A stretch of DNA of 64,000 nt from Undibacterium pigrum (GTDB lineage Bacteria > Pseudomonadota > Gammaproteobacteria > Burkholderiales > Burkholderiaceae_D): assembly GCF_003201815.1 (NCBI RefSeq), contig NZ_QJKB01000001.1, positions 124,001-188,000 of the forward strand. Direction: 5' to 3'. The translations under genes were made by a program, and so were the position numbers. The first letter of the stretch is position 1. Every line of letters begins with the position of its first letter. The notes beneath the pieces were generated by a model. That model ran no database searches, had not been told where the DNA came from, and worked only from the letters and a program-made list of their open reading frames with translations. This document shows positions 48,111-64,000 of this stretch, piece after piece.

Positions 48111-48124
48111 TTGATGTGCATCAA
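48111..48124. promoter_or_regulatory. FNR/ANR box upstream of ccoN
   Basis: TTGATGTGCATCAA is a perfect TTGAT-N4-ATCAA site. A TATTCT (48147-48152) lies about 32 bases from the site centre, the spacing expected of a class II FNR-activated promoter. The ccoN start codon is 59 bases downstream of the box. This indicates low-oxygen induction of the oxidase operon. Confidence 0.85.
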
Positions 48125-48182
48125 TGTAGCTGGGCAAGGCGATTGTTATTCTGGCGGTGTATTTTTACAACAGAGTGAGATC

Positions 48183-49622
48183 ATGACAATAACTAAAGAA
48201 AACACATACAACTATCGGGTTGTAAGGCAATTTTCTGTCATGGCAGTGGTATGGGGAATAGTCGGCATGCTCGTGGGCGTGGTGATTGCAACCCAGCTTG
48301 CCTGGCCGGAATTTCTTGGGGGGATACCGTGGCTAAGCTATGGCCGCTTGCGCCCTCTGCATACAAATGCCGTGATCTTTGCTTTCGGTGGTTGCGCCTT
48401 GTTTGCTACTTCCTACTATGTCGTACAGCGCACATCTAACGTACGTCTGTTTGCAGAAGGTCTTGCCGAGTTTACTTTCTGGGGCTGGCAACTGGTGATT
48501 GTTGCTGCGGCCATCAGCCTGCCCATGGGTTTTACCCAGGGTAAGGAATATGCAGAACTCGAATGGCCGATTGATTTGCTGATCGCTGTGGTCTGGGTAT
48601 CGTATGCCATCGTGTTTTTTGGCACACTGGTCAAGCGCAAGGTCGAGCATATTTATGTCGCTAACTGGTTTTACGGTGCCTTCATTATTGCCGTAGCGGT
48701 TTTGCATATCGTCAATAGCGCAGCTATCCCTGTGTCTTTCATGAAATCCTATTCTGCCTATTCTGGTGTGCAGGATGCGATGGTGCAATGGTGGTATGGC
48801 CACAATGCGGTGGGCTTTTTCCTGACTGCCGGTTTCCTGGGCATGATGTATTACTTCATCCCCAAACAAATTGAGCGTCCGGTTTATTCTTATCGTCTGT
48901 CCATCGTCCACTTCTGGGCTTTGATTTTCACTTACATGTGGGCGGGTCCGCATCATCTGCATTACACCGCCTTGCCTGATTGGGCGCAATCCATAGGCAT
49001 GCTGTTCTCACTGATCTTGCTGGCGCCTTCCTGGGGCGGTATGGTCAACGGCATCATGACCTTGTCTGGTGCCTGGAGCAAGCTGCGTTCTGATCCTATC
49101 CTGCGTTTCCTTATCGTGTCCCTGTCTTTCTACGGTATGTCTACCTTTGAAGGCCCGATGATGGCAATCAAGACTGTGAATGCCTTGTCGCACTACACAG
49201 ACTGGACCGTGGGTCACGTGCATTCTGGTGCCCTGGGCTGGGTTGGTTTTATCACGATTGGTAGTTTGTATTACCTGATCCCACGTCTGTTTGGTCAGAC
49301 CCAGATGTATAGCAAACGTCTCATCGAAGTGCATTTCTGGGTAGCGACCATAGGTGTTGTCCTTTACATTGCTTCCATGTGGATCGCCGGTGTCATGCAG
49401 GGTCTGATGTGGCGTGCAGTCAATGACGACGGCACCCTGACTTACTCTTTCGTGGAAAGTGTCAAAGCGACTTATCCCTACTATGTGATACGCATGATGG
49501 GTGGCTTGCTGTACCTGGGTGGCATGCTGGTCATGGCTTATAACGTTGCTAAAACCTTGATGGCAGCCAAGCCTGTCAATAATGCGATCCCGGCCTTGCC
49601 TGCTGCTGCAGCGCATGCATAG
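48183..49622 (+). CDS. ccoN: CcoN, cbb3-type cytochrome c oxidase subunit I
   Basis: Catalytic haem-copper subunit of the high-affinity cbb3 terminal oxidase, which reduces O2 at low oxygen and pumps protons. The 479-residue protein has about twelve TM helices and conserved His ligands in [59 protein letters not shown] (the copper site) and [17 protein letters not shown]. The frame is open further upstream but the ATG at 48183 gives the normal [18 protein letters not shown] start behind GAGTGAGA. An FNR box lies just upstream. First gene of ccoNOQP. Confidence 0.98.
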
Positions 49623-49648
49623 ATCATAGAAATCAAAGGAGAAATTTG

Positions 49649-50266
49649 ATGCGTAATTTTACTCATGATCTGATCGAGCGGAATGTCGGCTTGTTGCTGG
49701 TGCTGGTGATTTTGACGATCAGCGTTGGTGGTCTGGTCGAGATCGTTCCCTTGTTTTTTCAAAAGTCGACGACCCAGCCTGTACAGGGTATGCAACCGTA
49801 CTCGGCCCTGCAACTTGCTGGCCGCGATATTTATCTGAGAGAGGGCTGCTATGGTTGCCACTCACAGATGATACGTCCCTTCCGTGCAGAAACTGAACGC
49901 TATGGTCACTATTCAGTGGCAGGTGAATCTGTCTACGACCATCCTTTCCAGTGGGGCAGCAAGCGCACAGGTCCTGACCTGGCGCGGGTAGGTGGTCGCT
50001 ATAGCGATACCTGGCACAAAGACCATTTGAATGATCCGCGTTCCGTGGTGGTTGAGTCAAACATGCCTGCCTATCCATGGTTGGCCAAGACCCAGCTGGA
50101 TGCAAACGCAATCGCTCCAAAATTGCAGGCCATGAAAACCCTGGGCGTGCCATATACCGACGAGCAGATCAAGGCAAGCGCAGCTGAAGTCGCCAATAAG
50201 ACCGAGCTGGATGCACTGATCGCTTACCTGCAGGTGTTGGGTACAGCAATCAAGAACAAGAATTGA
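49649..50266 (+). CDS. ccoO: CcoO, cbb3 oxidase mono-haem cytochrome c subunit II
   Basis: A 205-residue membrane-anchored mono-haem cytochrome c that passes electrons to CcoN. It has one N-terminal TM helix ([25 protein letters not shown]), then [28 protein letters not shown] with the haem motif CYGCH. The axial Met would be in [10 protein letters not shown]. The start is set at the ATG at 49649 behind AAAGGAG; a TTG one codon earlier is not needed. Confidence 0.97.
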
Positions 50267-50315
50267 TACAGGAATAGCGGGGCCATCGCGGCCCTGCCTC
50301 TCGGGGAGAAATAAA

Positions 50316-50462
50316 ATGAATTTCACGATAATCAGCAGCGTAGTGACGGTCATCAGCCTCATCGTATTCCTTGGCATTCTTTACTGGGCATTCAGTGCCT
50401 CCAACAAGGAAAAATTCGAAAAAATGGCACGCTTGCCAATTGATAATGAGAATGGAAAATAG
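50316..50462 (+). CDS. ccoQ: CcoQ, small cbb3 oxidase subunit
   Basis: A 48-residue single-TM protein (MNFTIISSVVTVISLIVFLG..., hydrophobic to about residue 26) with a charged C-terminal tail. By position between ccoO and ccoP, size and topology it is the CcoQ/FixQ assembly-stabilising subunit. GGGGAGAAATAAA provides the ribosome site. It ends two bases before the ccoP ATG. Confidence 0.93.
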   Translation: MNFTIISSVVTVISLIVFLGILYWAFSASNKEKFEKMARLPIDNENGK

Positions 50463-50464
50463 CC

Positions 50465-51466
50465 ATGGCAGACTTTTTTAATGAATGGTGGAGTACTGGC
50501 ATCGCCATCGCTACGGCCTTGTCTATGCTGGCCTGTGTTTTATTGTTGTGGTCACAATCCAAGGTCAAGGTAAAAGTAGGCAGTGATGGCAAACCCTTGC
50601 CAGCAGAGACTACTGGTCATGTCTGGGATAATGATCTGATGGAGCAAAACAATCCCCTGCCTAAATGGTGGATGTGGTTGTTTTATCTGACCGTGGTGTA
50701 TAGCGTCGGTTATCTCGTCGTCTATCCTGGCTTTGGTAAATGGCAGGGTACATTTGGCTGGAGCCAAAAAGGCGAGTATGAAAAAGAGATGAAGGACGGA
50801 GAAGCACAATACGGCCCCATCTTCAATAAATACCTGGCCATGGATATCAAGGCAGTGGCCAAAGACCCACAGGCACGTGACATTGGTCAGCGTCTGTTTC
50901 TTAATACCTGCGCGCAATGCCATGGCTCTGATGCGCAGGGTGGCAAGGGCTATCCTAATCTGGCCGACAATGACTGGCTGTATGGCGGTGATCCACAAAC
51001 CATATTGACGACCATACGCGAAGGTCGCCATGGCCAGATGCCACCCATGGGCGCAGCCCTGGGCACGGACGATGATGTCAGGAATGTCGCCAACTATGTG
51101 CTGAGCTTGTCCAGCTCTGCCCATGATCCTATCAAGGCGGCTTTGGGTAAATCCAAATTTGCTGCCTGCGCCGCCTGTCATGGTGGTGATGGTAAAGGGA
51201 ACCAGGCTCTGGGCGCGCCCAATCTGACAGACAAGGTATGGCTGTATGGCGGTGGTATCGACAATGTCATGGAAACCATCAACAAGGGTCGCAATAACCA
51301 GATGCCAGCCCACAAGAATATTTTGACTGAGGGCAAAGTGCACTTGCTGGCAGCCTATGTCTGGGGTTTGTCTAATAACTCCGCCTCTGCGCAAATAAGT
51401 GATGCAGATGCGGGTGCAGTTAAACAGATCGCTGCAACTGCTTCAGAAGCTGCTGCAAGCAAGTAA
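50465..51466 (+). CDS. ccoP: CcoP, cbb3 oxidase di-haem cytochrome c subunit III
   Basis: A 333-residue di-haem cytochrome c that delivers electrons from cytochrome c. It has two TM helices (about 8-28 and 63-85, the second in MWLFYLTVVYSVGYLVVYPGFG). Two cytochrome c domains follow with haem motifs CAQCH in LFLNTCAQCHGSDAQGGKGYPNL and CAACH in FAACAACHGGDGKGN. Axial Met candidates are in GQMPPMG and NQMPAH. The C-terminus is Ala/Ser rich. It is the last of the ccoNOQP set, followed by a palindromic insert before ccoG. Confidence 0.97.
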   Translation: MADFFNEWWSTGIAIATALSMLACVLLLWSQSKVKVKVGSDGKPLPAETTGHVWDNDLMEQNNPLPKWWMWLFYLTVVYSVGYLVVYPGFGKWQGTFGWSQKGEYEKEMKDGEAQYGPIFNKYLAMDIKAVAKDPQARDIGQRLFLNTCAQCHGSDAQGGKGYPNLADNDWLYGGDPQTILTTIREGRHGQMPPMGAALGTDDDVRNVANYVLSLSSSAHDPIKAALGKSKFAACAACHGGDGKGNQALGAPNLTDKVWLYGGGIDNVMETINKGRNNQMPAHKNILTEGKVHLLAAYVWGLSNNSASAQISDADAGAVKQIAATASEAAASK

Positions 51467-51564: not shown

Positions 51565-51717
51565 AACCTGCTTACGATCTTACTGCGCGAGCGCAACCGA
51601 AATTAATGCGGGGCCTCATGCGCTGCTCAAAATGCTCATGTACTAGAGTACATTCCGCTTTTTGCGCTGCTCTTCAACCCGCTGACGCACGCTCGCTACA
51701 GATCGTAAACACGTTCT
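51563..51717. repeat. Palindromic REP/MITE-like element between ccoP and ccoG
   Basis: The ends are inverted repeats, AGAACCTGCTTACGATCT on the left (51563-51580) and the reverse complement of AGAACGTGTTTACGATCT on the right (51700-51717), followed inward by GCGAGCG / CGCTCGC. The centre has a perfect ATGTACT-AG-AGTACAT hairpin (51635-51650). The whole could fold into one long cruciform or RNA hairpin. No transposase is encoded, and no second copy was noticed in the window. Confidence 0.75.
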
Positions 51718-51743
51718 TACTAAATAAGAAGAACAGAATCACC

Positions 51744-53156
51744 ATGAAGCACATACCCATCATCCCGGTGCCGATAGACGAAGCTGAATTGGCGCTTTTT
51801 GAAGAACGCAGAAAGATTTATCCGCGTACACAAACAGGCTGGTTTTCTTCCTGGCGCTGGGTATTGGTATTTTTTACCCAGGCATTATTCTACGGAACTG
51901 CCTGGCTGAACTGGAATGACAGGCAAGCGGTCTTGTTTGATCTGGTTGCCCGCAAATTCTATATTTTTGGCCTGGTCCTGTGGCCGCAAGACTTTATCTA
52001 TCTGGCAGTCTTGCTGGTGATTTCTGCCCTGAGCCTGTTCTTGTTTACTGCCATAGCTGGCCGTTTATTTTGCGGCTATGCCTGTCCGCAAACTGTCTAT
52101 ACCGAGATTTTTCTGTGGATAGAAGCGAAGATAGAGGGTGAACGCAATGCCAGAATCAAGCTGGATGCCTCGCCCATGTCGGCGCACAAGTTCTCACTCA
52201 AATTCCTCAAGCACTTTATATGGATAACGCTGGCATTGTGGACAGGTTTCACCTTTGTTGGCTACTTCACACCCATCCGTGAACTGGCAATCTCGGTAGG
52301 TGATTTTACCCTTGGCCCGTGGGAAACATTCTGGTTCCTGTTTTACGGTTTTGCCACGTATGGCAATGCAGGCTGGATGCGTGAGCAGGTTTGCAAATAC
52401 ATGTGTCCTTATGCTCGCTTCCAGAGCGCCATGTTTGACAAGGACACGCTCATCGTCACTTATGACACCGCGCGTGGTGATCCCCGTGGTTCCAGAAACA
52501 AGAAGATCGATTACAAGGCCAAGGGCCTGGGTGATTGTGTCGATTGCGGGATTTGCGTCCAGGTTTGTCCAACAGGGATTGATATCCGCGAAGGCTTGCA
52601 ATATGAATGCATAGCCTGCGGAGCCTGTATTGATGGTTGTGACCAGGTGATGGACAAGATGGGCTATGAGCGTGGCCTGATACGCTATACCACCGAGCAT
52701 GCCCTGACACGCAAGCTGGATGACAAAGCCATGTGGAAACGTGTGTTCCGGGCGCGTACTTTGATCTATGGTGGCTTGCTCGGCCTGATCATCTTGCTGG
52801 CAGCAGTTTCCCTGGCCATGCATACACCTTTGAAGGTCGATGTCATCAAGGACAGGGGTATGCCAAAAATTACTGAAACGGGTGCGATAGAAAATGTCTA
52901 CCGTTTGCAAGTGATGAATACCCAGGAATCAGGGCGCCATTACAGCGTGGAAGTGCAGGGCGCTGCCGGTGCTGTCATTGTTAATCCTGCTGATCTTGAA
53001 GTTGGCTCTGCAAGTACAAAAGCATTTCCGATCAGGGTCAGGGTGCCTGCCAATGTGCTGGCTGGCGGGTCTAACCGCATACGTTTTGTCGTCAAGGATA
53101 TTGACTCACCAGAAGTGACGGTCACTGAAAAAGCCGTGTTTACCGTGCCACGATAG
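51744..53156 (+). CDS. ccoG: CcoG, cbb3 oxidase accessory ferredoxin-like protein (RdxA/FixG)
   Basis: A 470-residue membrane protein reported to reduce copper for cbb3 oxidase assembly. It has about five TM helices; FCGYACPQTVYTEIFLWIEAKIEGERNARIKLD and REQVCKYMCPYARFQSAMFDKDTLIVTYD are the CcoG signatures. Two ferredoxin-type clusters follow in DCVDCGICVQVCPTGIDIREGLQYECIACGACIDGCD. An FN3-like periplasmic C-terminal domain comes after the last TM. The ATG at 51744 gives MKHIPIIPVPIDEAE; the open frame upstream runs through the palindromic element and is not coding. Confidence 0.96.
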   Translation: MKHIPIIPVPIDEAELALFEERRKIYPRTQTGWFSSWRWVLVFFTQALFYGTAWLNWNDRQAVLFDLVARKFYIFGLVLWPQDFIYLAVLLVISALSLFLFTAIAGRLFCGYACPQTVYTEIFLWIEAKIEGERNARIKLDASPMSAHKFSLKFLKHFIWITLALWTGFTFVGYFTPIRELAISVGDFTLGPWETFWFLFYGFATYGNAGWMREQVCKYMCPYARFQSAMFDKDTLIVTYDTARGDPRGSRNKKIDYKAKGLGDCVDCGICVQVCPTGIDIREGLQYECIACGACIDGCDQVMDKMGYERGLIRYTTEHALTRKLDDKAMWKRVFRARTLIYGGLLGLIILLAAVSLAMHTPLKVDVIKDRGMPKITETGAIENVYRLQVMNTQESGRHYSVEVQGAAGAVIVNPADLEVGSASTKAFPIRVRVPANVLAGGSNRIRFVVKDIDSPEVTVTEKAVFTVPR

Positions 53157-53165
53157 GAGAAGAAA

Positions 53166-53711
53166 ATGGAAGCCAGTCTGATGCCCCCAAAATCCAGGCG
53201 CGATACCTGGTACAAAGAACCATGGTTGCTGCTGGTTGCAGGCGGCCCCGCCTTTGTGGTGTGTGCCAGTATCTATACCGGGTATGTTGCCATGCGCGGT
53301 GCTGACAAGGTAGTCGCCGAGGATTATTACAAGCAGGGCCTGATGATCAATAAAGACATACAGCGCGATGCAAAGGCCAGGGAATTGCAATTGAATGCCT
53401 ATCTCAATGCCGACTTTGCCAGGGGTAAGATACTATTGCAACTCAGTGGCAAGGGTAATTTGCCAGACAACATACAACTCAGCCTGGCCAATGCGGCAAC
53501 GGGTGGTAATTCGGTAAGCGAAGTCATACGGCGGTTGCCGCTGAAGCAGATAGGCCCGGGCCAGTATGAAGGCGAGCTGAAACTGCTGCCACATGCCGGG
53601 GAAGACGCAGTCAGGTTGTTCCATATCAAACTGGAGACCACAGACTGGCGTCTGACTGGCGACTGGTTTGATCCAGGACAAAAACCAGTGCAACTGAATG
53701 CAGCAAAATGA
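53166..53711 (+). CDS. ccoH: CcoH/FixH family cbb3 oxidase assembly protein
   Basis: A 181-residue protein with one TM helix at about 20-42 (PWLLLVAGGPAFVVCASIYTGYVA) and a periplasmic FixH domain that starts at VAEDYYKQGLMINKDIQRD, a family signature. CcoH stabilises CcoP/CcoNO during oxidase assembly. It starts nine bases after the ccoG stop behind GGAGAAGAAA. ccoI and ccoS, the usual next genes, do not follow; a small two-TM protein does. Confidence 0.92.
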   Translation: MEASLMPPKSRRDTWYKEPWLLLVAGGPAFVVCASIYTGYVAMRGADKVVAEDYYKQGLMINKDIQRDAKARELQLNAYLNADFARGKILLQLSGKGNLPDNIQLSLANAATGGNSVSEVIRRLPLKQIGPGQYEGELKLLPHAGEDAVRLFHIKLETTDWRLTGDWFDPGQKPVQLNAAK

Positions 53712-54038: not shown

Positions 54039-55442
54039 ATGAAAATGAACGAAGCGGCTGCATTTCCAGCGATAGAAATCCCTGAAGACCTGATACGCCG
54101 CTTCGATAGTCTGGGGCCGCGTTACACCTCCTATCCGACGGCAGACAGGTTCACTGATGACTTTACTGCAGAGTCATATGTCAGCTATTTGCAGGCCCGT
54201 AGCCAGCTGACAGACAAGCCGCCTCTGTCGCTCTACATACATATACCGTTTTGTGCTTCGCTTTGTTATTACTGTGCTTGCAACAAGGTCATTACCAAGG
54301 ACCATGGTCGCTCGGCCAAATATCTGGAATATCTGGCCAAGGAACTGCGCCTGGTCGCGGCGCACTTGGGTGGGCGTGAAACCCTGAGCCAGTTGCATCT
54401 GGGCGGCGGTACTCCCACCTTCCTCAGTCATGCTGAATTACGTCAATTAATGCAATTGCTGCGTCAGTATTTTGACTTTTCTGATGATGCGGAAATATCG
54501 ATAGAAATAGATCCGCGCACCGTCACTACCGAGACCTTGCACGTATTGGCAGAGCTGGGTTTCAACCGCACCAGTCTGGGTGTGCAAGATTTTAACGCCG
54601 ATGTACAAAAGGCAGTGCACCGCATACAGCCTTACGAGATGGTGGCGCAAACCGTGGCAGACAGTCGCAACTGTGGTTTTCAGTCGATTAATTTTGATTT
54701 GATCTATGGCTTGCCCAAACAAAACCTGGAGAGTTTTTCGCAAACCCTGGATCAGGTCATTGCCTTGTCGCCAGCCCGCATTGCCTTATACAACTATGCG
54801 CATTTGCCGACACGCTTCAAGCCACAACGCCGCATTGCTGAGACCGATTTGCCATCGGCTGAACAGCGCCTGCAGATTTTTTTGATGTCCATACGGCGCT
54901 TGCTGGCAGAAGGCTATGTCTACATAGGCCTGGACCATTTTGCCAAACCGGATGATAGTCTTGCACTGGCGACACTGGATGGCAGCCTGCATAGAAATTT
55001 CCAGGGTTATACCACGAGAGCTGACTGTGATCTTATCGCTCTGGGTTTGTCGGCAATCGGCAAGGTGGGTGCTTCATATGGCCAGAACCTGCGCACACTG
55101 GATGAGTATTATGCCTGCCTTGATCAGGGTAAATTGCCTGTAGAAAAAGGTTATCACCTCGATGCCGATGATATCTTGCGCAGGCAAGTCATCATGAGCC
55201 TGATGTGCAGCAATACCCTGAATTTTCAATTTTTGGAAATGCAGTATGGAATTTCTTTTCATGAATACTTTGCTGCTGAATTGTTGAAATTGCAGGATTA
55301 TGCAAAAGAAGGTTTGTTGCTCATTGATGATTACAGCATCAGTATCCCGCCCAGAGGTCGTTTATTTGTGCGCGCACTGGCGATGGTATTTGATGCTTAC
55401 CTGGCGCAGCAATCAGGTGCCAGATATTCCAAACTGATTTGA
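54039..55442 (+). CDS. hemN: HemN, oxygen-independent coproporphyrinogen III oxidase
   Basis: Radical-SAM enzyme that converts coproporphyrinogen III to protoporphyrinogen IX without O2, feeding haem synthesis under the same conditions in which cbb3 oxidase is used. The 467 residues show GPRYTSYPTADRF at the N-terminus and the cluster motif PFCASLCYYCAC (C72, C76, C79 plus C81). HLGGGTPTFLS, IEIDPRTVTTE, FNRTSLGVQDF and NFDLIYGLPKQ follow as expected. Its stop is one base before the ATG of the next gene, so they are coupled. Gene neighbourhood strongly supports anaerobic function. Confidence 0.96.
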   Translation: MKMNEAAAFPAIEIPEDLIRRFDSLGPRYTSYPTADRFTDDFTAESYVSYLQARSQLTDKPPLSLYIHIPFCASLCYYCACNKVITKDHGRSAKYLEYLAKELRLVAAHLGGRETLSQLHLGGGTPTFLSHAELRQLMQLLRQYFDFSDDAEISIEIDPRTVTTETLHVLAELGFNRTSLGVQDFNADVQKAVHRIQPYEMVAQTVADSRNCGFQSINFDLIYGLPKQNLESFSQTLDQVIALSPARIALYNYAHLPTRFKPQRRIAETDLPSAEQRLQIFLMSIRRLLAEGYVYIGLDHFAKPDDSLALATLDGSLHRNFQGYTTRADCDLIALGLSAIGKVGASYGQNLRTLDEYYACLDQGKLPVEKGYHLDADDILRRQVIMSLMCSNTLNFQFLEMQYGISFHEYFAAELLKLQDYAKEGLLLIDDYSISIPPRGRLFVRALAMVFDAYLAQQSGARYSKLI

Positions 55443-56704: not shown

Positions 56705-58633
56705 TTAATTCATTGGCAAATTAATTTTTAGCCTGGTTCCTTCACCCGGCTGACTATCCACCAGAAATTCACCATGCATGGCCTTGACGCGTTCGCGCAT
56801 GCCGACCAGACCGAAGGAGCTTGATTTACGCATTTCGTCGGCTTCTATGCCCTTGCCATTGTCAGTAATGCTGAAACTCAACATGCTGGCAGTGCGCTCA
56901 AAAATAATTTGTACTTCTGTGGCAACTGCATGTCTGACCACATTCGTCAGTGACTCTTGAACGATGCGGAAGATGGCCGTGCTGCGTGCATCATCAAGCG
57001 CGAGCTGTTCTTCATTGGCTTGCAATTCGCAGTCTATGCCATGACGGATGGAAAAATCCTTTTGCAGGGTTTGCAGGGCAAAATACAAACCACCTTCATC
57101 CAGAGCACGTGGTCTGAGGTCGGTGGCGATACGCCTCAGGGTAGTGATGGAAGTCAGCAACAACTGGTCCATGCTGTTCATGGTTTGCTGGGTTTTTTCC
57201 GTTACCACACTGTCCCTTTGCAGCAATGATAAGTCCATGCGCAGGGCGGCCAGCAACTGACCAAGATCATCATGCAATTCGCGTGCGATATGCTTGCGTT
57301 CTTCTTCACGTATGCTTTGCAGGGCGGCTGATAACTGCGTCAGTTCATCGTGGTAAAGTGCCATTTTTTCTTTGGCGACCTTGCGCTCGGTAATGTCGCG
57401 GAAAATGACCGTGTAAAAACGCTTGCCGTTTTCTATCTGGCTGGAGATGGAGGCTTCGATGGGAAATTCTTCTCCATTGGCTTTGACACCGGTGACATAA
57501 AAATCTTCAAAATTACCACCCATCTTCCGGCGGGTCTCACCTGTTTCTCCAAATTGTTCTACATGTTTTCCGTGTACTTTGCGATGGCGTTCTGGCAGTA
57601 CGAGGTTGAGCGAGGCACCCAGCAAATCTTCTACGTCATAACCGAAAGTGGCAGCAGCGGCAGGGTTGACCAGAATGATGGACTGGGTTTGATCGATAGT
57701 GATAATGCCATCGATGGCGGTATCTATCATGCGGCTCAGGCGCTCCCGCTCTATGCTTAGTTCTTCTGCCGAACGCGCCAGATTCTCGCTGGTCTCAGCC
57801 AGGGTCGCATAAGGAGTATGAATATTAATTGCTACCATGCCGCGATAGATGGCGATTGCTGCCAGCAACTGGAATACGTGGCCAATCGCGACGAAGATAT
57901 CGTAGCCATTGGTGTAAATGGCAAAATACACTTCCGAGATTGCCAATAACACGGCCGCCAGGAACAGAGGGGCAGGTTCAATTTGCAGGCGGCTTCCATG
58001 TTCATTTGTTGTTGATACGGCATCACCCTGTTTGTTCATTTGGTAGGCGGTGAACAGGTTGATGGCTATCAGGCCAATTTCACAGGCCAGCTTGAATGAA
58101 GTTTGTCCCTGGCCTTCGATATAAGTCAGGGGCAACAGGTGCGGAAATATAAATACCGTCGTCATCCAGCCTGCAGTCGCCAGCAGTCCGGCAATCAGGA
58201 CAAAGTAAGCCTGCCGCGGGCTGACTTCTGAATCTTCCGGTGCCAGTGCCAGACCCAGCAAGGTAGTGGCGATGAAGGAACGCGACAGCAGCCAGAATAG
58301 CAGGGACTTGTGCATATCCTCAGCAGCAGGAAAACCTGGCATACCCTGAAAGCTGATGGCGTGCATGAAACCCAGGATGGCAGTGCACAAAAAGGCGACC
58401 GCCAGGATGACACTGCTCTTTTTCCTTGCGCCGCCAAAGGCATTCCAGCACACGATAAACACCGATGTAAAAATGACGATGGTGATGGTTTCCAATACCG
58501 TATGTACAGGTAGAGGGGCGGGCATACGTATGGCAGACAAGCTGTCATGATTGAGCCACAGGATGAGGGAAAGGATAGCGAGCGTACCCGCTATCCAGCG
58601 GGCGCTTGTCAGTCCGGGGTATTCATGTGCCAT
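56705..58633 (-). CDS. MASE3-PAS-HisKA_3 sensor histidine kinase
   Basis: A 642-residue membrane kinase. The N-terminal 270 residues form seven to eight TM helices of the MASE3 sensor type (FLCTAILGFMHAISFQGMPGF, with the MxHAxxFxGM pattern). A PAS domain follows at about 298-417 (IDTAIDGIITIDQTQSIILVNPAAAATFGY), then HisKA_3 with H454 in RKHIARELHDDLGQLLAALRMDL, and a HATPase with N-box VQESLTNVVRHA and G-boxes DNGKGI and FGLVGMRERV. The kinase class phosphorylates NarL-type regulators; the closest such regulator is at 61609-62250, four genes away, on the same strand. The two probably pair. Confidence 0.92.
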   Translation of the reverse strand: MAHEYPGLTSARWIAGTLAILSLILWLNHDSLSAIRMPAPLPVHTVLETITIVIFTSVFIVCWNAFGGARKKSSVILAVAFLCTAILGFMHAISFQGMPGFPAAEDMHKSLLFWLLSRSFIATTLLGLALAPEDSEVSPRQAYFVLIAGLLATAGWMTTVFIFPHLLPLTYIEGQGQTSFKLACEIGLIAINLFTAYQMNKQGDAVSTTNEHGSRLQIEPAPLFLAAVLLAISEVYFAIYTNGYDIFVAIGHVFQLLAAIAIYRGMVAINIHTPYATLAETSENLARSAEELSIERERLSRMIDTAIDGIITIDQTQSIILVNPAAAATFGYDVEDLLGASLNLVLPERHRKVHGKHVEQFGETGETRRKMGGNFEDFYVTGVKANGEEFPIEASISSQIENGKRFYTVIFRDITERKVAKEKMALYHDELTQLSAALQSIREEERKHIARELHDDLGQLLAALRMDLSLLQRDSVVTEKTQQTMNSMDQLLLTSITTLRRIATDLRPRALDEGGLYFALQTLQKDFSIRHGIDCELQANEEQLALDDARSTAIFRIVQESLTNVVRHAVATEVQIIFERTASMLSFSITDNGKGIEADEMRKSSSFGLVGMRERVKAMHGEFLVDSQPGEGTRLKINLPMN

Positions 58634-58750: not shown

Positions 58751-59590
58751 CTAATGTGACATAAGTACGGGTACAGTCATGCTTTGTAAAATAGTGCGGG
58801 TAACGCCACCCATGATCATTTCGCGGAAACGCGAATGGCCGTAGCCACCCATGACCAGCATATCACTATCAAGATCATGCGCCAGCGAGAGCAGGGCATT
58901 GCCAATATCGGTAGAAGTTTTATGCACACCGACTTCTACCTTGATACCATGTCGTGCCAGGTACAGGGCGATATCCGCCCCGGGTTGTTCGCCATGGCTG
59001 TCTGGCACGGTCTTGGGATTGAAGATCGCGACCTGGACCAGGTCAGCACGTCGCAGCAGGGGAATGGCATCGGTAATGGCGCGTGTTGATTCGCGACTGG
59101 CATCCCAGGCGATCAGGGGGCGCTTTCCAACGGTTGTGAAATCGCCGACATAAGGGATGATCAATATGGGGCGTCCTGAATTCATGATAAGGTATTCGGG
59201 AAAGTCTGGCAGCACCGAAGGTGAGGGTTCATCGCGATTGGTCTGGCCTATGACCACCAGGTCGCTATATCTGGCCTGCAAACCTATACCGCCGCCAGCT
59301 TCATCATTGGCGATCATGCTTTCGAAAGAATTGACACCGCTGGACTGGGCCTGCTGATTAAAGTTGTCTACCGCTTTTTCTGCACGTTCACGCAGATAAT
59401 TCAAATGTATGGTCAGATTGGGGTCATTCGCGCTGATATTGCCATCCTGGTAGATGAAGCGTGAGACACCCGTCACTGCAGTGCCTACCAGATGGGCTTC
59501 GTCCTTGTTGGCAATTTCTGCAGCGACGCGGACGCGAAAATTAGAACGTTCAGATTCATCAATATGAACCAGGATGGTTTTGTATGGCAT
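58751..59590 (-). CDS. Universal stress protein, two-domain
   Basis: A 279-residue protein with tandem UspA folds. Domain 1 begins YKTILVHIDESERS and ends PILIIPYVG; domain 2 begins RPLIAWDASRESTRAI and ends VPVLMSH. Only domain 2 keeps the ATP-binding loop, GGYGHSRFREMIMGGVT (G-2x-G-9x-G/S type). Tandem Usp proteins of this type are common in low-oxygen regulons of betaproteobacteria. It lies downstream of the Fnr-family gene (124 bases) on the same strand. Confidence 0.92.
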   Translation of the reverse strand: MPYKTILVHIDESERSNFRVRVAAEIANKDEAHLVGTAVTGVSRFIYQDGNISANDPNLTIHLNYLRERAEKAVDNFNQQAQSSGVNSFESMIANDEAGGGIGLQARYSDLVVIGQTNRDEPSPSVLPDFPEYLIMNSGRPILIIPYVGDFTTVGKRPLIAWDASRESTRAITDAIPLLRRADLVQVAIFNPKTVPDSHGEQPGADIALYLARHGIKVEVGVHKTSTDIGNALLSLAHDLDSDMLVMGGYGHSRFREMIMGGVTRTILQSMTVPVLMSH

Positions 59591-59714: not shown

Positions 59715-60602
59715 CTAATTTAAAGCAACGGCAACTTCTTTGCCCCATTGCGGTAATAAATTCTTGCCAACTAAAGCAGATACTTTTTCACTGACTTTGA
59801 TGCGCGCCTTGGCAGGTGGCAGGCGGCGCAGGGTTTTCAGTGCAGGCACGTCCAGCAGGGCGATCTGGCGTTGATCAACACTGATCATGCCCATTTCATT
59901 AAAGGCTGACAGGGTACGGCTGACGGTTTCCAGTGTCAGGCCCAGATAACTGCCAATTTCGTGACGTGTCATGCGCAAATTGAAAGATTTGCCAGAATAA
60001 CCGAGCTGACTGAAGCGTTCACCCAGTGTAGTCAGGAAACGCGCCACTTTGGCTTCTGCACTCAGGGCGCTCAGCATGCCTATCATGATTTGCTCACGTA
60101 CCAGTTCACGACTCATGACGCTGAACATGGCTTGTTCCAGTTCTGCATAAGTGCGGCCCAGTGCAGAGAAAGTCTTGTAAGGCATGAGGATGATATCGCA
60201 ATCAGACAGGGCGACGGCTTCAGAAGCGTGATGCTGGTTGTGTATGCCATCTATGCCCAGCAAATCCCCTTTCATGGGAAAGCTCAACACTTGCTCATTG
60301 CCATATTCATCAATGAGCACGGTTTTCAGGAAACCGGAATTAACGATGTAGAGGGTGTCAAAATCCTGGCCTATGGTATGCACTCTTTGACCTGCTTTAT
60401 AGCGTACGTGCTGGAACAGCACTTCTTCATCGGCAGAGGCTGCGGGAGTAGGTATGCGCAAGAGTTCACACACTTCACGCAGGTTGGACCAGAGGTTGCC
60501 GTGGCAGCGCCACCCGGCTTCATTGGAGACGACCGGAAATGCATTTTTGCTGATAACTGAAGACAGACTGCTGTTACTCTTAGTGATGGCTGCTGTAGTC
60601 AT
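59715..60602 (-). CDS. Crp/Fnr-family transcriptional regulator with altered cysteine set
   Basis: A 295-residue regulator with cyclic-nucleotide-binding-like domain (about 65-150), dimer helix, and C-terminal HTH (RHEIGSYLGLTLETVSRTLSAF). The recognition helix keeps the FNR-type E..SR residues (LETVSR), which predicts binding to TTGAT-N4-ATCAA. In E. coli FNR four Cys (20, 23, 29, 122) hold the [4Fe-4S] cluster. Here C45 (LREVCELL) and C135 (LSDCDI) match the last two, but the Cys pair is replaced by a single C33 in GWRCHGN, so a normal FNR cluster cannot form as in E. coli. A C-terminal extension of about 50 residues follows the HTH. It sits beside usp and receiver genes. Confidence 0.9.
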   Translation of the reverse strand: MTTAAITKSNSSLSSVISKNAFPVVSNEAGWRCHGNLWSNLREVCELLRIPTPAASADEEVLFQHVRYKAGQRVHTIGQDFDTLYIVNSGFLKTVLIDEYGNEQVLSFPMKGDLLGIDGIHNQHHASEAVALSDCDIILMPYKTFSALGRTYAELEQAMFSVMSRELVREQIMIGMLSALSAEAKVARFLTTLGERFSQLGYSGKSFNLRMTRHEIGSYLGLTLETVSRTLSAFNEMGMISVDQRQIALLDVPALKTLRRLPPAKARIKVSEKVSALVGKNLLPQWGKEVAVALN

Positions 60603-60655: not shown

Positions 60656-61012
60656 TTACTGCCAACGCAGCAGATAATCTTGTAGCAAGGCAAAGTCGGT
60701 GGACTTGTCCAGAAAACCATCTGCGCCGGCACGCAAGGCATGCTGGCGGTTGTTTTCTGTTGCATGATTGGTCAGCACCACTACCTTGATGCCGGGCTTG
60801 CTTTGCTTTATATTTTTTAGCAACTGCAAACCATTGCCATCGGCGAGCTGGATGTCCAGTATCAGGGCATCGGCATCATTGCCCAGCAGTGCCTGGTAGG
60901 CGCTACCCATATCACTTGCTACCCCCAGTACGTGCATGCCAGGCACTTCTTCAACAAACCGTACCAAACGGTTTTGAATCAGGACTGAATCTTCAACGAT
61001 GTAGAGGTTCAT
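60656..61012 (-). CDS. Single-domain response regulator
   Basis: A 118-residue receiver with acidic pair in IVEDS, acceptor Asp D53 in LILDIQLADGNG, switch Thr in VVLTNHAT, and K103 in FLDKSTD. No output domain. It lies 53 bases upstream of the Fnr-family gene on the same strand, and an FNR-like box is centred about 60 bases before its start, so it may open a receiver-Fnr-Usp transcript. Partner kinase unknown; the MASE3 kinase is the closest candidate. Confidence 0.92.
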   Translation of the reverse strand: MNLYIVEDSVLIQNRLVRFVEEVPGMHVLGVASDMGSAYQALLGNDADALILDIQLADGNGLQLLKNIKQSKPGIKVVVLTNHATENNRQHALRAGADGFLDKSTDFALLQDYLLRWQ

Positions 61013-61065: not shown

Positions 61066-61079
61066 TTGATTTAAATCAG
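61066..61079. promoter_or_regulatory. FNR-box-like palindrome upstream of receiver gene
   Basis: TTGATTTAAATCAG matches TTGAT-N4-ATCAA at nine of ten positions, 53 bases before the start of the single-domain receiver (minus strand). No convincing -10 box is at class II spacing, so promoter class is unclear. Confidence 0.6.
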
Positions 61080-61130
61080 GGGATGCTGATTTGAACTGTC
61101 AGATTTGGCGCTGCCAGGGTAGGAATATTC

Positions 61131-61499
61131 CTAGAACTCATTTCATAAATAGGGTGAGATGCGTTTGCCTCATAACGTGGGCTGGTAAGGGTAAAGCAGG
61201 GGTTTCGTGCAACATGTTGCACGCCTGCGTACGATGTGCGCTTACCAGCGCACATGCGCCCTGCAAGGGGACGAGGCGATCAATAGCGGTGCTATTGATA
61301 ACGAGTCCAACGCAGTCCAGCGCGCGTTATGAGGCAAACCCTTAGTGAACTGACGATTTGGGCGCATTGCAGCGCGTAGTGAGCCACCCCTCCTTTGCTA
61401 AGGCAGGAGCCTTAGCTGCAGAAGGGAAACACCTGAGGCCTTGCACTGCATCCCAAATCGTCTTGTTCGCACTCATCCTATTTATGAAATGAGTTCTAG
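61131..61499. mobile_element. MITE-like element with terminal inverted repeats and CTAG flanks
   Basis: The ends are AACTCATTTCATAAATAGG (19 bases identical) followed by one mismatch and TGAG, in inverted orientation; the interior runs 61135-61495 and CTAG flanks both ends (61131-61134 and 61496-61499). CTAG could be a 4-bp target duplication, as IS5-group elements make. Inside are further perfect inverted repeats: 61163-61177 / 61325-61339, 61352-61362 / 61452-61462, and hairpins at 61207-61222, 61235-61254 and 61279-61299. No transposase frame exists; frames through it are Arg/Pro-rich noise. It lies between the receiver gene and the NarL-type gene and fills the 61013-61608 gap. Confidence 0.8.
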
Positions 61500-61608: not shown

Positions 61609-62250
61609 TCAGGCTTGTGGTTGCAAGAGATGGTGCGCAACGGCGTATTGCACCAGGTCAGACAAATTACTCATATTCATTTTTTGCATGATACGGGTTT
61701 TATGTGTGCTTACGGTCTTCACGCTCAAATGCAAAAGCTCTCCGATTTCGGTAATGGACTTGCCTTTGACGAGATGGGTAAATACTTCAAACTCACGGTC
61801 AGACAGACTGGTGTGCGGCTGGCTGTCATCGGCTGGCATGGCACTCATGGCCAGTTGTTCTGCTACTTCTATGCTGATGTAGGGGCGGCCAGAAGCCACT
61901 TTGCGCAAGGCCGTCACCAGTTGCGTGCCTGCGCTTTCCTTGGTCAGGTAGCCACGTGCACCGGCGCGTATGGCACGCACGGCATACTGCTCTTCTTCAT
62001 GCATGGTAAGTATCAGTATGGGCAGCTTGGGGAACTCATCCTTGATCTGGCGTATCAGGTCTACCCCGCTACGGCCAGGCATGGACAGGTCCATCAGCAA
62101 GACATCAAATTCAGTGTTGCGTACTTTTTCCAGGGTATCAAAACCATCTACTGCTTCGGCAACTACTTGTATATCTTCTATACCTTCAAGTATGCGTTTG
62201 AGTCCCTCACGCATGATGGTATGGTCGTCGGCGATCAAGATGCGGGTCAT
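61609..62250 (-). CDS. NarL/FixJ-family response regulator
   Basis: A 213-residue two-domain regulator. Receiver 1-120 has the acidic pair in ILIADDH, acceptor D54 in VLLMDLSMPGRSG, switch Thr in LILTMHEE and Lys in GYLTKES. The LuxR-type HTH at about 150-205 (LSDREFEVFTHLVKGKSITEIGELLHLSVKTVSTHKTRIMQKM) is intact. The ATG at 62250 gives the normal MTRILIADDH start; the longer frame adds only six residues. The closest HisKA_3 kinase is the MASE3 protein at 56705-58633, the probable partner. Confidence 0.93.
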   Translation of the reverse strand: MTRILIADDHTIMREGLKRILEGIEDIQVVAEAVDGFDTLEKVRNTEFDVLLMDLSMPGRSGVDLIRQIKDEFPKLPILILTMHEEEQYAVRAIRAGARGYLTKESAGTQLVTALRKVASGRPYISIEVAEQLAMSAMPADDSQPHTSLSDREFEVFTHLVKGKSITEIGELLHLSVKTVSTHKTRIMQKMNMSNLSDLVQYAVAHHLLQPQA

Positions 62251-62363
62251 AGGGCGATAGGAGTGCAATACATGTTCAGTGGCATGTCAGGCACAAGTTT
62301 GTGCCTGGACAAGAATTTCCACTATTGTACTGTAGCCTGTGCTGATGTGTGACTCAGTCTCGT

Positions 62364-62819
62364 TCAGTGATGCTTGATCCTGTGTACCAGTACCGGTATC
62401 AGGCACAATGACAATACCTTGGTGGTAACGCTGCCAAGAATGAATTGCCCCAGGCCGCTGCGACCGTGCGAACCCATGAAGATCAGGTCGCAGGCATATT
62501 CCTGGGCAGTATGAACAATTTCTTTTGCGGTGGAATCATTGAATTGTATGACTTGCTGGCAGGCCAGTCCTGCGGCTGCGGCCGCCTCTCTGACGGGTTG
62601 CAGGTAGCTTTCCGCCAGGGTTTGCATGGCTGCCTGGTACTCTTCTTCAGTAGGGCCATTGGGCGGCAGGATATCGACATACAGTGGGTATTGATAATTG
62701 CCCGCAACATAGACGGCAACTACTTCAGCCTGCAGTTGCTGAGCAAATTCCAGTCCCGCCGTGACGCAGGCATGTGACAGTTCTGAACCATCGGTTGGTA
62801 ACAATATGCGTTTGTACAT
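62364..62819 (-). CDS. Universal stress protein, single domain
   Basis: A 151-residue UspA-type protein that binds ATP. It begins MYKRILLPTDGSELS and ends with the nucleotide loop MGSHGRSGLGQFILGSVTTKVL (G-2x-G-9x-G-S/T). An FNR-like box is centred about 60 bases upstream, so low-oxygen control is likely. Separate transcription unit from the NarL-type gene; 113 bases between them. Confidence 0.94.
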   Translation of the reverse strand: MYKRILLPTDGSELSHACVTAGLEFAQQLQAEVVAVYVAGNYQYPLYVDILPPNGPTEEEYQAAMQTLAESYLQPVREAAAAAGLACQQVIQFNDSTAKEIVHTAQEYACDLIFMGSHGRSGLGQFILGSVTTKVLSLCLIPVLVHRIKHH

Positions 62820-62872: not shown

Positions 62873-62886
62873 TTGATTTCAAACAA
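62873..62886. promoter_or_regulatory. FNR-box-like palindrome upstream of universal stress gene
   Basis: TTGATTTCAAACAA matches TTGAT-N4-ATCAA at nine of ten positions, 53 bases before the start of the minus-strand universal stress gene, the same distance as the box before the lone receiver. Confidence 0.6.
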
Positions 62887-62959: not shown

Positions 62960-64000
62960 TTAAAATTCTGTACTGAGTAGCTGGAATAGCTCTGGCGAGT
63001 TGCAGTGTTGTAGCTGGATGTTGGCGCAATCATGCCAGCTGGCAAATTCGCGTAGGGTTTTGCCAAGGTCAGTGGCTAATGCCTGGGAAGTGCGCACACC
63101 AGGTTCCATATGCAGGGCCTTGATTTCGAACAAGCCGTCCTTGCGATGGGCTTTGGCATCCATGCGACCTATCAACGCGCCTCTGCGCAATATTGGCAAG
63201 GTGAAGTAGCCGTAGCGTCGTTTTGGAGCGGGCGTATAACATTCGAGTTTGTAGTCAAAATCAAATAATTCTATGGCGCGTTTTCTGTCCCAGACTACCG
63301 GGTCAAACGGCGAAAGTATTCGGGTGGCTGTTGCCTTGAGTTGATTATCCTGAGCACCTTGCAGTGTATCCAGACGATCTGGATGAACATAGAAAAGTTG
63401 CTCCTGATTTTCTATCTGCACCGGTATTAGCAGGCCTTCTTTGACGAGTTGTGCGGGCTGGTTTTTTGCATCGAATTTACCCATGCGAAAATAATCTGCC
63501 ATCCAGCTGGCTTTGCAAATGCCCAGTGCGCGCACTGCCTGCAAGACCTGCGTGCGTTCGCATTCTGCAGGCGAACGCAGATGTTTTTTGTCATTCCATT
63601 TTGGATGCACGCGCTCACGCAAATCATAGATGCGCTGGAAGTTGTGGCGTTTGGCCACCATCACTTCACCTGTCGTGAACAAGACTTCCAGTGAGCGTTT
63701 TTCCGGCTTCCATTCCCACCAGCCACCACTCTTGCCATCAGTGCGTTCAAAGTCGGCAGAACGGCTGGCACCCTTGTCACGTATATGCTGGCGTATGGCT
63801 TCTACCTGGGCGGCATTTTCCTTGAGCCACTTGTGGTTGTATTTCCAGCCCAGTCCTTGCGGCGACACCATTTGATGACGGTACAAACCATAGTCTTCTA
63901 TAGGCAGAAAACAGGCCTCATGCGACCAGTATTCAAACAGATGGCCTTCTTCCAGTAATTCATTGAGCCAGGCATGTTCATAGTGCCCAAGGCGGCTCCA
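62960..64000 (-). CDS. YcaQ-like winged-helix DNA glycosylase family protein (5' truncated by window)
   Basis: The C-terminal 346 residues of a protein of the YcaQ/HTH_42 family, in which E. coli YcaQ unhooks interstrand DNA crosslinks. The frame is open to the window edge and reads AWLNELLEEGHLFEYWSHEACFLPIEDYGLYRHQM, a YcaQ-type segment, so about 60-70 N-terminal residues are missing. Further landmarks are TDGKSGGWWEWKPEKRSLEVLFTTGEVMVAKR, LSPFDPVVWDRKRAIELFDFDYKLECYTP and LIGRMDAKAHRKDG. The catalytic QxQ motif of the family, if present, is in the missing part or could not be identified here. Confidence 0.9.
   Translation of the reverse strand, partial: WSRLGHYEHAWLNELLEEGHLFEYWSHEACFLPIEDYGLYRHQMVSPQGLGWKYNHKWLKENAAQVEAIRQHIRDKGASRSADFERTDGKSGGWWEWKPEKRSLEVLFTTGEVMVAKRHNFQRIYDLRERVHPKWNDKKHLRSPAECERTQVLQAVRALGICKASWMADYFRMGKFDAKNQPAQLVKEGLLIPVQIENQEQLFYVHPDRLDTLQGAQDNQLKATATRILSPFDPVVWDRKRAIELFDFDYKLECYTPAPKRRYGYFTLPILRRGALIGRMDAKAHRKDGLFEIKALHMEPGVRTSQALATDLGKTLREFASWHDCANIQLQHCNSPELFQLLSTEF

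Follow-up and report, generated by a model that had tools for sequence, protein, structure and literature searches.

The question raised by this locus is how a regulator that seems to have kept the DNA-reading helix of FNR, but to have lost most of the cysteines that hold its [4Fe-4S] cluster, receives its signal. The gene, here called FNRL, lies in a 64,000-nucleotide stretch of the Undibacterium pigrum genome; the whole stretch is referred to below as the window. The gene and its relevant codons are the following:

59715..60602, minus strand: FNRL, a Crp/Fnr-type regulator predicted to lack an FNR-type cluster (ORF list, Pfam, Fnr model PRK11161)
59916..59933, minus strand: LETVSR recognition helix, residues 224-229, with E225, S228 and R229 (sequence)
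60504..60506, minus strand: Cys33, poorly conserved in the clade, Cys in 19/74 (alignment)
60468..60470, minus strand: Cys45, in the column of FNR ligand C29, Cys in 71/74 (alignment)
60198..60200, minus strand: Cys135, three residues ahead of the FNR C122 column, Cys in 72/74 (alignment, PDB match)

The reading frame, whose exact coordinates were confirmed by the ORF list, begins with ATG and specifies 295 amino acids, and its Pfam matches (cNMP_binding, HTH_Crp_2 and Crp) each exceed their cut-offs. Fnr (PRK11161) is the best NCBIfam model at 165.8 bits, below the cut-off of 228, and the FixK family model scores 86.2 bits, which is below both its own cut-off of 300 and the Fnr score of the protein. 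The nearest named relatives in a homologue search are Undibacterium proteins. Residues E225, T226, V227, S228 and R229 are unchanged across 18 aligned FNRL rows and contain the E-x2-S-R arrangement with which FNR reads TTGAT, so that the same DNA reading is predicted for FNRL; the assignment to the Fnr family with an LETVSR helix, made earlier from the letters alone, thus holds.

The cysteines were compared in an alignment of 105 rows, comprising 31 canonical sequences (E. coli FNR and those of 30 loci) and 74 members of the FNRL clade; identical proteins were removed and no protein was excluded for being shorter than 200 amino acids. All four ligand columns (C20, C23, C29 and C122) hold Cys in 31/31 canonical rows, and the respective counts among FNRL rows are 0/74, 1/74 (L126), 71/74 and 0/74. 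In FNRL itself C20, C23 and C122 of E. coli FNR are replaced by N36, S39 and I138, and C29 is kept as C45. Thus, of the four cysteine ligands of a [4Fe-4S] FNR the C29 equivalent alone remains, and, to judge from the sequence, an Fe-S ligand motif is absent, as in FixK. Cysteines 33, 45 and 135 are the only ones in the protein; the sequence-only reading, which gave C33 and C45 alone for the N-terminal region, is correct on this point, and the pattern is not a sequencing artefact because C45 and C135 recur in 25/25 named loci (C33 does not occur in all of these). What did not survive is the view of all three as a ligand set: C33 falls in a non-ligand column of the FNR alignment and does not characterise the family, and C135 does not correspond to the fourth FNR ligand, its column being Ser in 31/31 canonical rows and Cys in 72/74 FNRL rows. 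The gap-free alignment with the closest PDB matches, 'FNR type regulator' chains of Aliivibrio fischeri FNR, likewise places Ser opposite Cys135 and the FNR Cys opposite Ile138; it starts at residue 59 or 60, so the N-terminal cysteine region of FNRL lies outside it. With one FNR ligand kept, C33 local and C135 offset, lack of an FNR-type cluster is a better reading than an 'altered ligand set'; the Fnr-family alignment proposed as a check confirmed that the ligand set differs from that of FNR.

Two alternatives make use of the remaining cysteines. FNRL could carry a different Fe-S cluster, for instance one in which C45 and C135 bridge subunits or non-Cys ligands complete the set, given that two conserved cysteines lie near the old cluster site, one of them at an original ligand position. 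We regard this as very unlikely because the clade has lost three of the four ligand positions and C33 is Cys in 19/74 rows only; the family alignment, with C33 unconserved and C135 offset from C122, weakens any altered-cluster reading, and the earlier suggestion of a different cluster found no support beyond the two conserved cysteines. Alternatively, FNRL might itself be a thiol switch, a C45/C135 disulfide or oxidation setting DNA binding and replacing the cluster, an idea in line with the position of both residues at or near former ligand positions, with their retention in 71/74 and 72/74 clade rows (C135 being Ser in 31/31 canonical rows) and with the oxidation sensitivity of the single cysteine of FixK2 (PMC9104804). 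However, FNRL is highly conserved throughout, which makes cysteine conservation weak as evidence, C45 is missing in L108 and L129, C135 in L127 and both in L130, and the AlphaFold model (mean pLDDT 59.4, pTM 0.46) is too poor for estimating the C45-C135 distance or for comparing folds. On balance, we consider a thiol switch in place of the cluster rather improbable; such a switch could also operate on top of transcriptional control, and a response of C45/C135 to another redox signal, one of the earlier guesses, is possible. The retention of C45 and C135 almost everywhere is in tension with the purely transcriptional scheme favoured below, which leaves it unexplained. As a separate observation, the L126 protein (L126:1351-2271, minus strand), from another family, shows Cys in both the C23 and the C29 column, also retains C135 and is a possible intermediate in ligand loss.

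By sequence, FNRL is part of a large Oxalobacteraceae clade distinct from canonical FNR. In a quick tree, which was midpoint-rooted and contained several long branches, the two are separated by a branch with 100% SH-aLRT support, and recent decay of a canonical FNR gene is disfavoured by that branch. The sequence-only reading had named membership of a well-described group with the same cysteine pattern and a known cluster as grounds for its refutation; the group proved large, but no description of it was found in titles and abstract openings of the open-licence literature, although it may still be known.

No second FNR-type protein was detected when the 6.4-Mb genome to which the window belongs, rated 100% complete, was searched at the protein level. 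The two other Crp-family matches in it are 26% and 24% identical, and their helices, MTRQTLSK and SRQRANQ, both lack E-x2-SR. Among 195 genomes of the family, 175 gave matches to FNRL at E <= 1e-15, and the best matches were split by a wide gap, being either <= 8.5e-94 or >= 5.0e-48; with presence defined as a best E <= 1e-90 in the protein search (the table being read by eye), FNRL is found in 126/195. Matches to the Fnr model at E <= 1e-60 occur in 136/195 family genomes, in 132 of them above the model cut-off. Both types are present in 90 family genomes, FNRL only in 36, the canonical type only in 46 and neither in 23. The notion that FNRL competes at FNR sites therefore does not apply to its own genome, in which no canonical FNR was found, but could hold in the 90/195 that have both. 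At the order level, 12/300 genomes pass 1e-60, eight from the same family and four from two others (f22 and f23). Within the genus (43 genomes), 36 have the FNRL type only, as matches below the Fnr cut-off, some with two or three of these; two (G154 and G515) have canonical FNR only, as a single match each above that cut-off; and five have neither. A further family member (G024, 4.0 Mb) shows an unusual expansion to ten FNR/FNRL-type matches.

The neighbourhood of FNRL is centred on the genes for a cbb3 oxidase:

48111..48124, no strand assigned: perfect FNR box TTGATGTGCATCAA upstream of ccoN (box scan)
48183..49622, plus strand: ccoN, cbb3 oxidase subunit I (COX1 match)
49646..51466, plus strand: ORFs 49646-50266 and 50465-51466, presumably ccoO and ccoP, named by position and sequence
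51606..53711, plus strand: ccoG/fixG at 51606-53156 (FixG_C) and a fixH-like ORF at 53166-53711 (by position only)
54039..55442, plus strand: hemN (Radical_SAM, HemN_C)

The cbb3 clusters of G154 and G515 carry their canonical FNR gene right beside fixH and in the opposite orientation; the same side of fixH in the window is taken up by hemN, an exporter-like ORF, a histidine kinase, the universal stress protein gene USPa and FNRL. The ccoN gene is present in 39/43 genus genomes, including G507 (96% complete, 360 contigs), which gave no FNR-type match. In the 30 of the 39 ccoN-bearing genomes that were compared, G154 and G515 not among them, a perfect TTGATN4ATCAA precedes ccoN in 29/30 loci and the thirtieth has one mismatch; the box centre lies 64-78 bp from the start codon, and both half-sites are constant, with variable inner bases. 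Mononucleotide shuffles yielded a perfect box in 0.13% of cases. In the window, 32 bp separate the box centre from that of the TATTCT hexamer at 48147, which matches a class II arrangement of FNR promoters, and ccoN is a likely target of FNRL, as judged from its promoter. Per-genome totals of FNR boxes were dropped as evidence for FNRL because one genus genome lacking both FNRL and canonical FNR (G085) has 21 perfect boxes.

DNR is a cluster-less FNR relative that reads a similar box. The existence of such relatives would be compatible with FNRL as a heme- or NO-binding regulator of the DNR/NnrR kind; we nevertheless hold this to be highly improbable, given that FNR leads the 56 PDB matches listed (E <= 1e-3), among which no chain is labelled DNR, that Fnr is the best NCBIfam model of FNRL and that the mapped neighbourhood consists of a cbb3 oxidase and hemN.

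With FNRL predicted to have an FNR-type head and no FNR-type cluster, its own promoter and the genes next to it become relevant to the question of signal input:

60656..61012, minus strand: RRsd, a single-domain receiver, FixT-like in position (ORF list, Pfam)
61066..61079, minus strand: one-mismatch FNR-type box CTGATTTAAATCAA within the promoter of RRsd-FNRL (box scan)
61120..61133, no strand assigned: palindrome TAGGAATATTCCTA, a proposed response-regulator site (promoter alignment, genome scan)
61609..62268, minus strand: RRlux, a LuxR-type response regulator of the NarL/FixJ family (ORF list, Pfam, homologue searches)
62364..62819, minus strand: USPb, a universal stress protein (Pfam)
58751..59590, minus strand: USPa, a universal stress protein downstream of FNRL (ORF list, Pfam)
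56705..58633, minus strand: MASE3-PAS-HisKA_3 histidine kinase (Pfam, PAS match)

An FNR box with at most one mismatch is found upstream of RRsd in 22/23 related loci, almost always as CTGATNTAAATCAA. In the window, the GATAAT hexamer of the RRsd promoter is only 23 bp from the box centre, so that activation is not assured, and negative autoregulation of the RRsd-FNRL operon would be equally possible. A one-mismatch FNR-like box, TTGTTTGAAATCAA, is located at 62873-62886 upstream of USPb, where a box with no more than one mismatch occurs in 9/10 loci, and no conserved FNR boxes were found within 250 bp of RRlux, FNRL, USPa, the kinase or hemN. Beside the regulatory cluster there is also a gene for an AlkZ-like DNA glycosylase (62960-63886, minus strand; PF06224, E 1.4e-48).

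RRlux, the ORF of which is listed from a TTG although translation more probably begins at 62250 with the ATG of MTRILIAD, scores 184.2 as UvrY/GacA (cut-off 280) and 96.8 as FixJ (cut-off 255), in both cases below the cut-off. When called at E <= 1e-80, it accompanies FNRL in 124 of the 195 family genomes; two have FNRL only (G066 and G087, 81% and 68% complete), none has RRlux only and 69 have neither. At E <= 1e-70 the corresponding numbers are 125, 1, 3 and 66. Of the 43 genus genomes, counted by eye, 35 have both genes and six neither, the two exceptions being G513 (FNRL only, 65% complete) and G503 (RRlux only, 83% complete). The distance between the two genes is at most 3 kb in 102 of the 120 genomes with both positions listed and exceeds 3 kb in 18; several of the latter are fragmented assemblies or contain extra FNRL copies, and only the best FNRL position of a genome entered the count.

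Alignment of 24 RRsd promoters brought out the palindrome TAGGAATATTCCTA, which varies among them (L006 and L013, for example, each deviate at one specified base). The exact form TAGGAN4TCCTA occurs once in the 6.4-Mb genome, at 61120-61133, compared with 14 copies of a backward control, suggesting that it is generally avoided elsewhere in this genome. Within 700 bp upstream of FNRL, an exact copy is present in 49/83 rows and one with at most one mismatch in 65/83, against 0/83 and 7/83 in the same stretches reversed; in the other 18/83 rows it is absent or poor (2-4 mismatches), and the 83 rows include near-duplicates from the same species. The palindrome also precedes FNRL in three loci of other families (L126, L127 and L129). 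At least one exact copy is found in 91/124 family genomes with RRlux and in 31/71 without it, with means of 1.5 and 0.8 copies per genome (Mann-Whitney p 1e-4, among related genomes). This difference is modest and the genomes are related, so genome totals were set aside as main evidence and the argument rests on the location upstream of FNRL. A text search of the literature with three spellings of the palindrome returned nothing related.

RRlux and FNRL might nevertheless be linked by shared ancestry only, the palindrome being the site of another regulator. The family genomes are related, their counts are not independent, and co-occurrence p-values are for this reason unusable as probabilities; moreover, the palindrome occurs in some genomes without RRlux, such as G154, which has two copies and neither RRlux nor FNRL. 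Against this explanation, two genomes (G073 and G110) keep both genes although these lie far apart on a single contig, both genes are jointly absent from the four genus genomes more than 90% complete that lack FNRL, and the palindrome stands ahead of FNRL even where RRlux was not in the stretch examined (L106, L109 and L115). Shared ancestry alone seems to us an unlikely explanation, though not a negligible one, and a functional link between RRlux and the RRsd-FNRL promoter is preferred.

The probable source of the signal is the kinase, encoded downstream of USPa and composed of MASE3, PAS, HisKA_3 and HATPase domains. FixL (1d06) is the first match of its PAS domain (E 4.1e-14), with DosP ranking lower, and His354 (57572-57574) occupies the column of a FixL histidine that serves there as the heme ligand. 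This histidine is kept in 21/21 aligned MASE3-type relatives; these comprise 20/20 Undibacterium-type loci plus L108, which belongs to another genus and is 48% identical. Two more distant kinases differ at this column, L111 having His and L116 lacking it. Similarity and the proximal histidine together fit a FixL-type heme-PAS domain, and the domain may bind heme; the distal region, the place of the distal arginine, has an insertion relative to FixL. The kinase gene adjoins FNRL in 21/45 mapped loci, 20 of them of the Undibacterium type. RRsd, encoded directly upstream of FNRL and devoid of cysteines, is found in 23/25 Undibacterium-type and near loci and in L108, and has counterparts with 43-44% identity in L126, L127 and L129; genes resembling RRlux, RRsd and FNRL lie side by side in L126 and L129.

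Ligand loss, an intact helix, the failure to detect a second FNR, conserved boxes and co-occurrence can all be read directly from the sequences, and we consider it probable that FNRL is a FixK-like regulator of the FNR branch, devoid of a cluster, whose signal would enter by transcription through an RRlux/kinase relay. The MASE3-PAS kinase, a product of this gene cluster, would sense oxygen by heme and probably phosphorylate RRlux, which would bind TAGGAATATTCCTA ahead of RRsd-FNRL and switch the operon on. FNRL, with the DNA-reading head of FNR, would bind TTGATN4ATCAA boxes, activate the cbb3 operon and affect its own operon in one direction or the other; an FNR-type cluster would play no part in oxygen sensing by FNRL, control being exerted at transcription instead, and RRsd may supply feedback in the manner of FixT. 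Evidence that weighs against this reading comes from the 18/83 FNRL rows with an absent or poor palindrome, the palindromes in genomes without RRlux, the adjacency of the kinase gene in no more than 21/45 loci, the distal insertion of the kinase, and G507, in which ccoN is present without an FNR-type match. Among the three earlier guesses, oxygen insensitivity, as far as an FNR-type cluster is concerned, is the best supported, given the loss of three of four ligands throughout the clade and the association of the gene with a response regulator. More tentatively, and at somewhat less than even chances, a complete FixL-FixJ-FixT-FixK-like circuit could have arisen independently in Oxalobacteraceae and a few of their relatives by recruitment of non-orthologous parts, replacing FNR at the cbb3 locus of Undibacterium while keeping the FNR sites, with essentially one dedicated RRlux promoter in the present genome. 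If the relay reading is true, a direct oxygen sensor can be exchanged for a kinase relay without rewiring of the target promoters. The genus offers a natural experiment: most genomes combine FNRL with RRlux, two have canonical FNR as their sole type, and one rated 100% complete (G085) has no FNR of either type, no RRlux and no ccoN. For annotation, the name 'Fnr' within the FNRL clade is no ground for assuming oxygen sensing.

FNRL shares with FNR of E. coli and Aliivibrio fischeri the Crp/Fnr domains, the E-x2-SR helix and promoters with FNR boxes, but is without three of the four ligands and has a partner response regulator. Herbaspirillum seropedicae belongs to the same bacterial family as the FNRL host. 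Its Fnr1 resembles FNRL in that the gene is near fixNOP, an operon controlled by Fnr1; Fnr1 and Fnr3 are, however, treated as [4Fe-4S] proteins with conserved cysteine ligands, and the available part of the source mentions no two-component partner for Fnr1 (PMC5934665). RRsd, being a single-domain receiver in the FNRL operon, recalls FixT, a receiver tied to the FixLJ circuit, but has no cysteine, whereas the Caulobacter protein has a four-Cys Fe-S motif (PMC7078487). RRlux departs from FixJ in family score (184.2 as UvrY/GacA against 96.8). RcsB, like RRlux, is a NarL/FixJ-family regulator. The RcsAB box consensus, TaAGaatatTCcta (PMC4325325), differs from TAGGAATATTCCTA at one position. The closest functional parallel is FixLJ-FixK2 of Bradyrhizobium, in which, as described in PMC9104804, a two-component system controls an FNR-branch regulator that activates fixNOQP (cbb3), FixK2 is active without an identifiable effector, the Fe-S motif is absent from FixK-type proteins and negative autoregulation of fixK2 is on record. 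The circuit proposed here would have the same outline, namely two-component control of an FNR-branch regulator without a cluster and a cbb3 operon as likely output. It differs in that the Fnr model gives FNRL 165.8 bits and the FixK model 86.2, the kinase is of the MASE3-PAS-HisKA_3 type, and the DNA-binding domain of FNRL has no cysteine, unlike FixK2 with its C183 near that domain (PMC9104804). On sequence grounds, the FNRL circuit appears to resemble the rhizobial FixLJ-FixK circuit in its arrangement while being built, by family score, from different parts.
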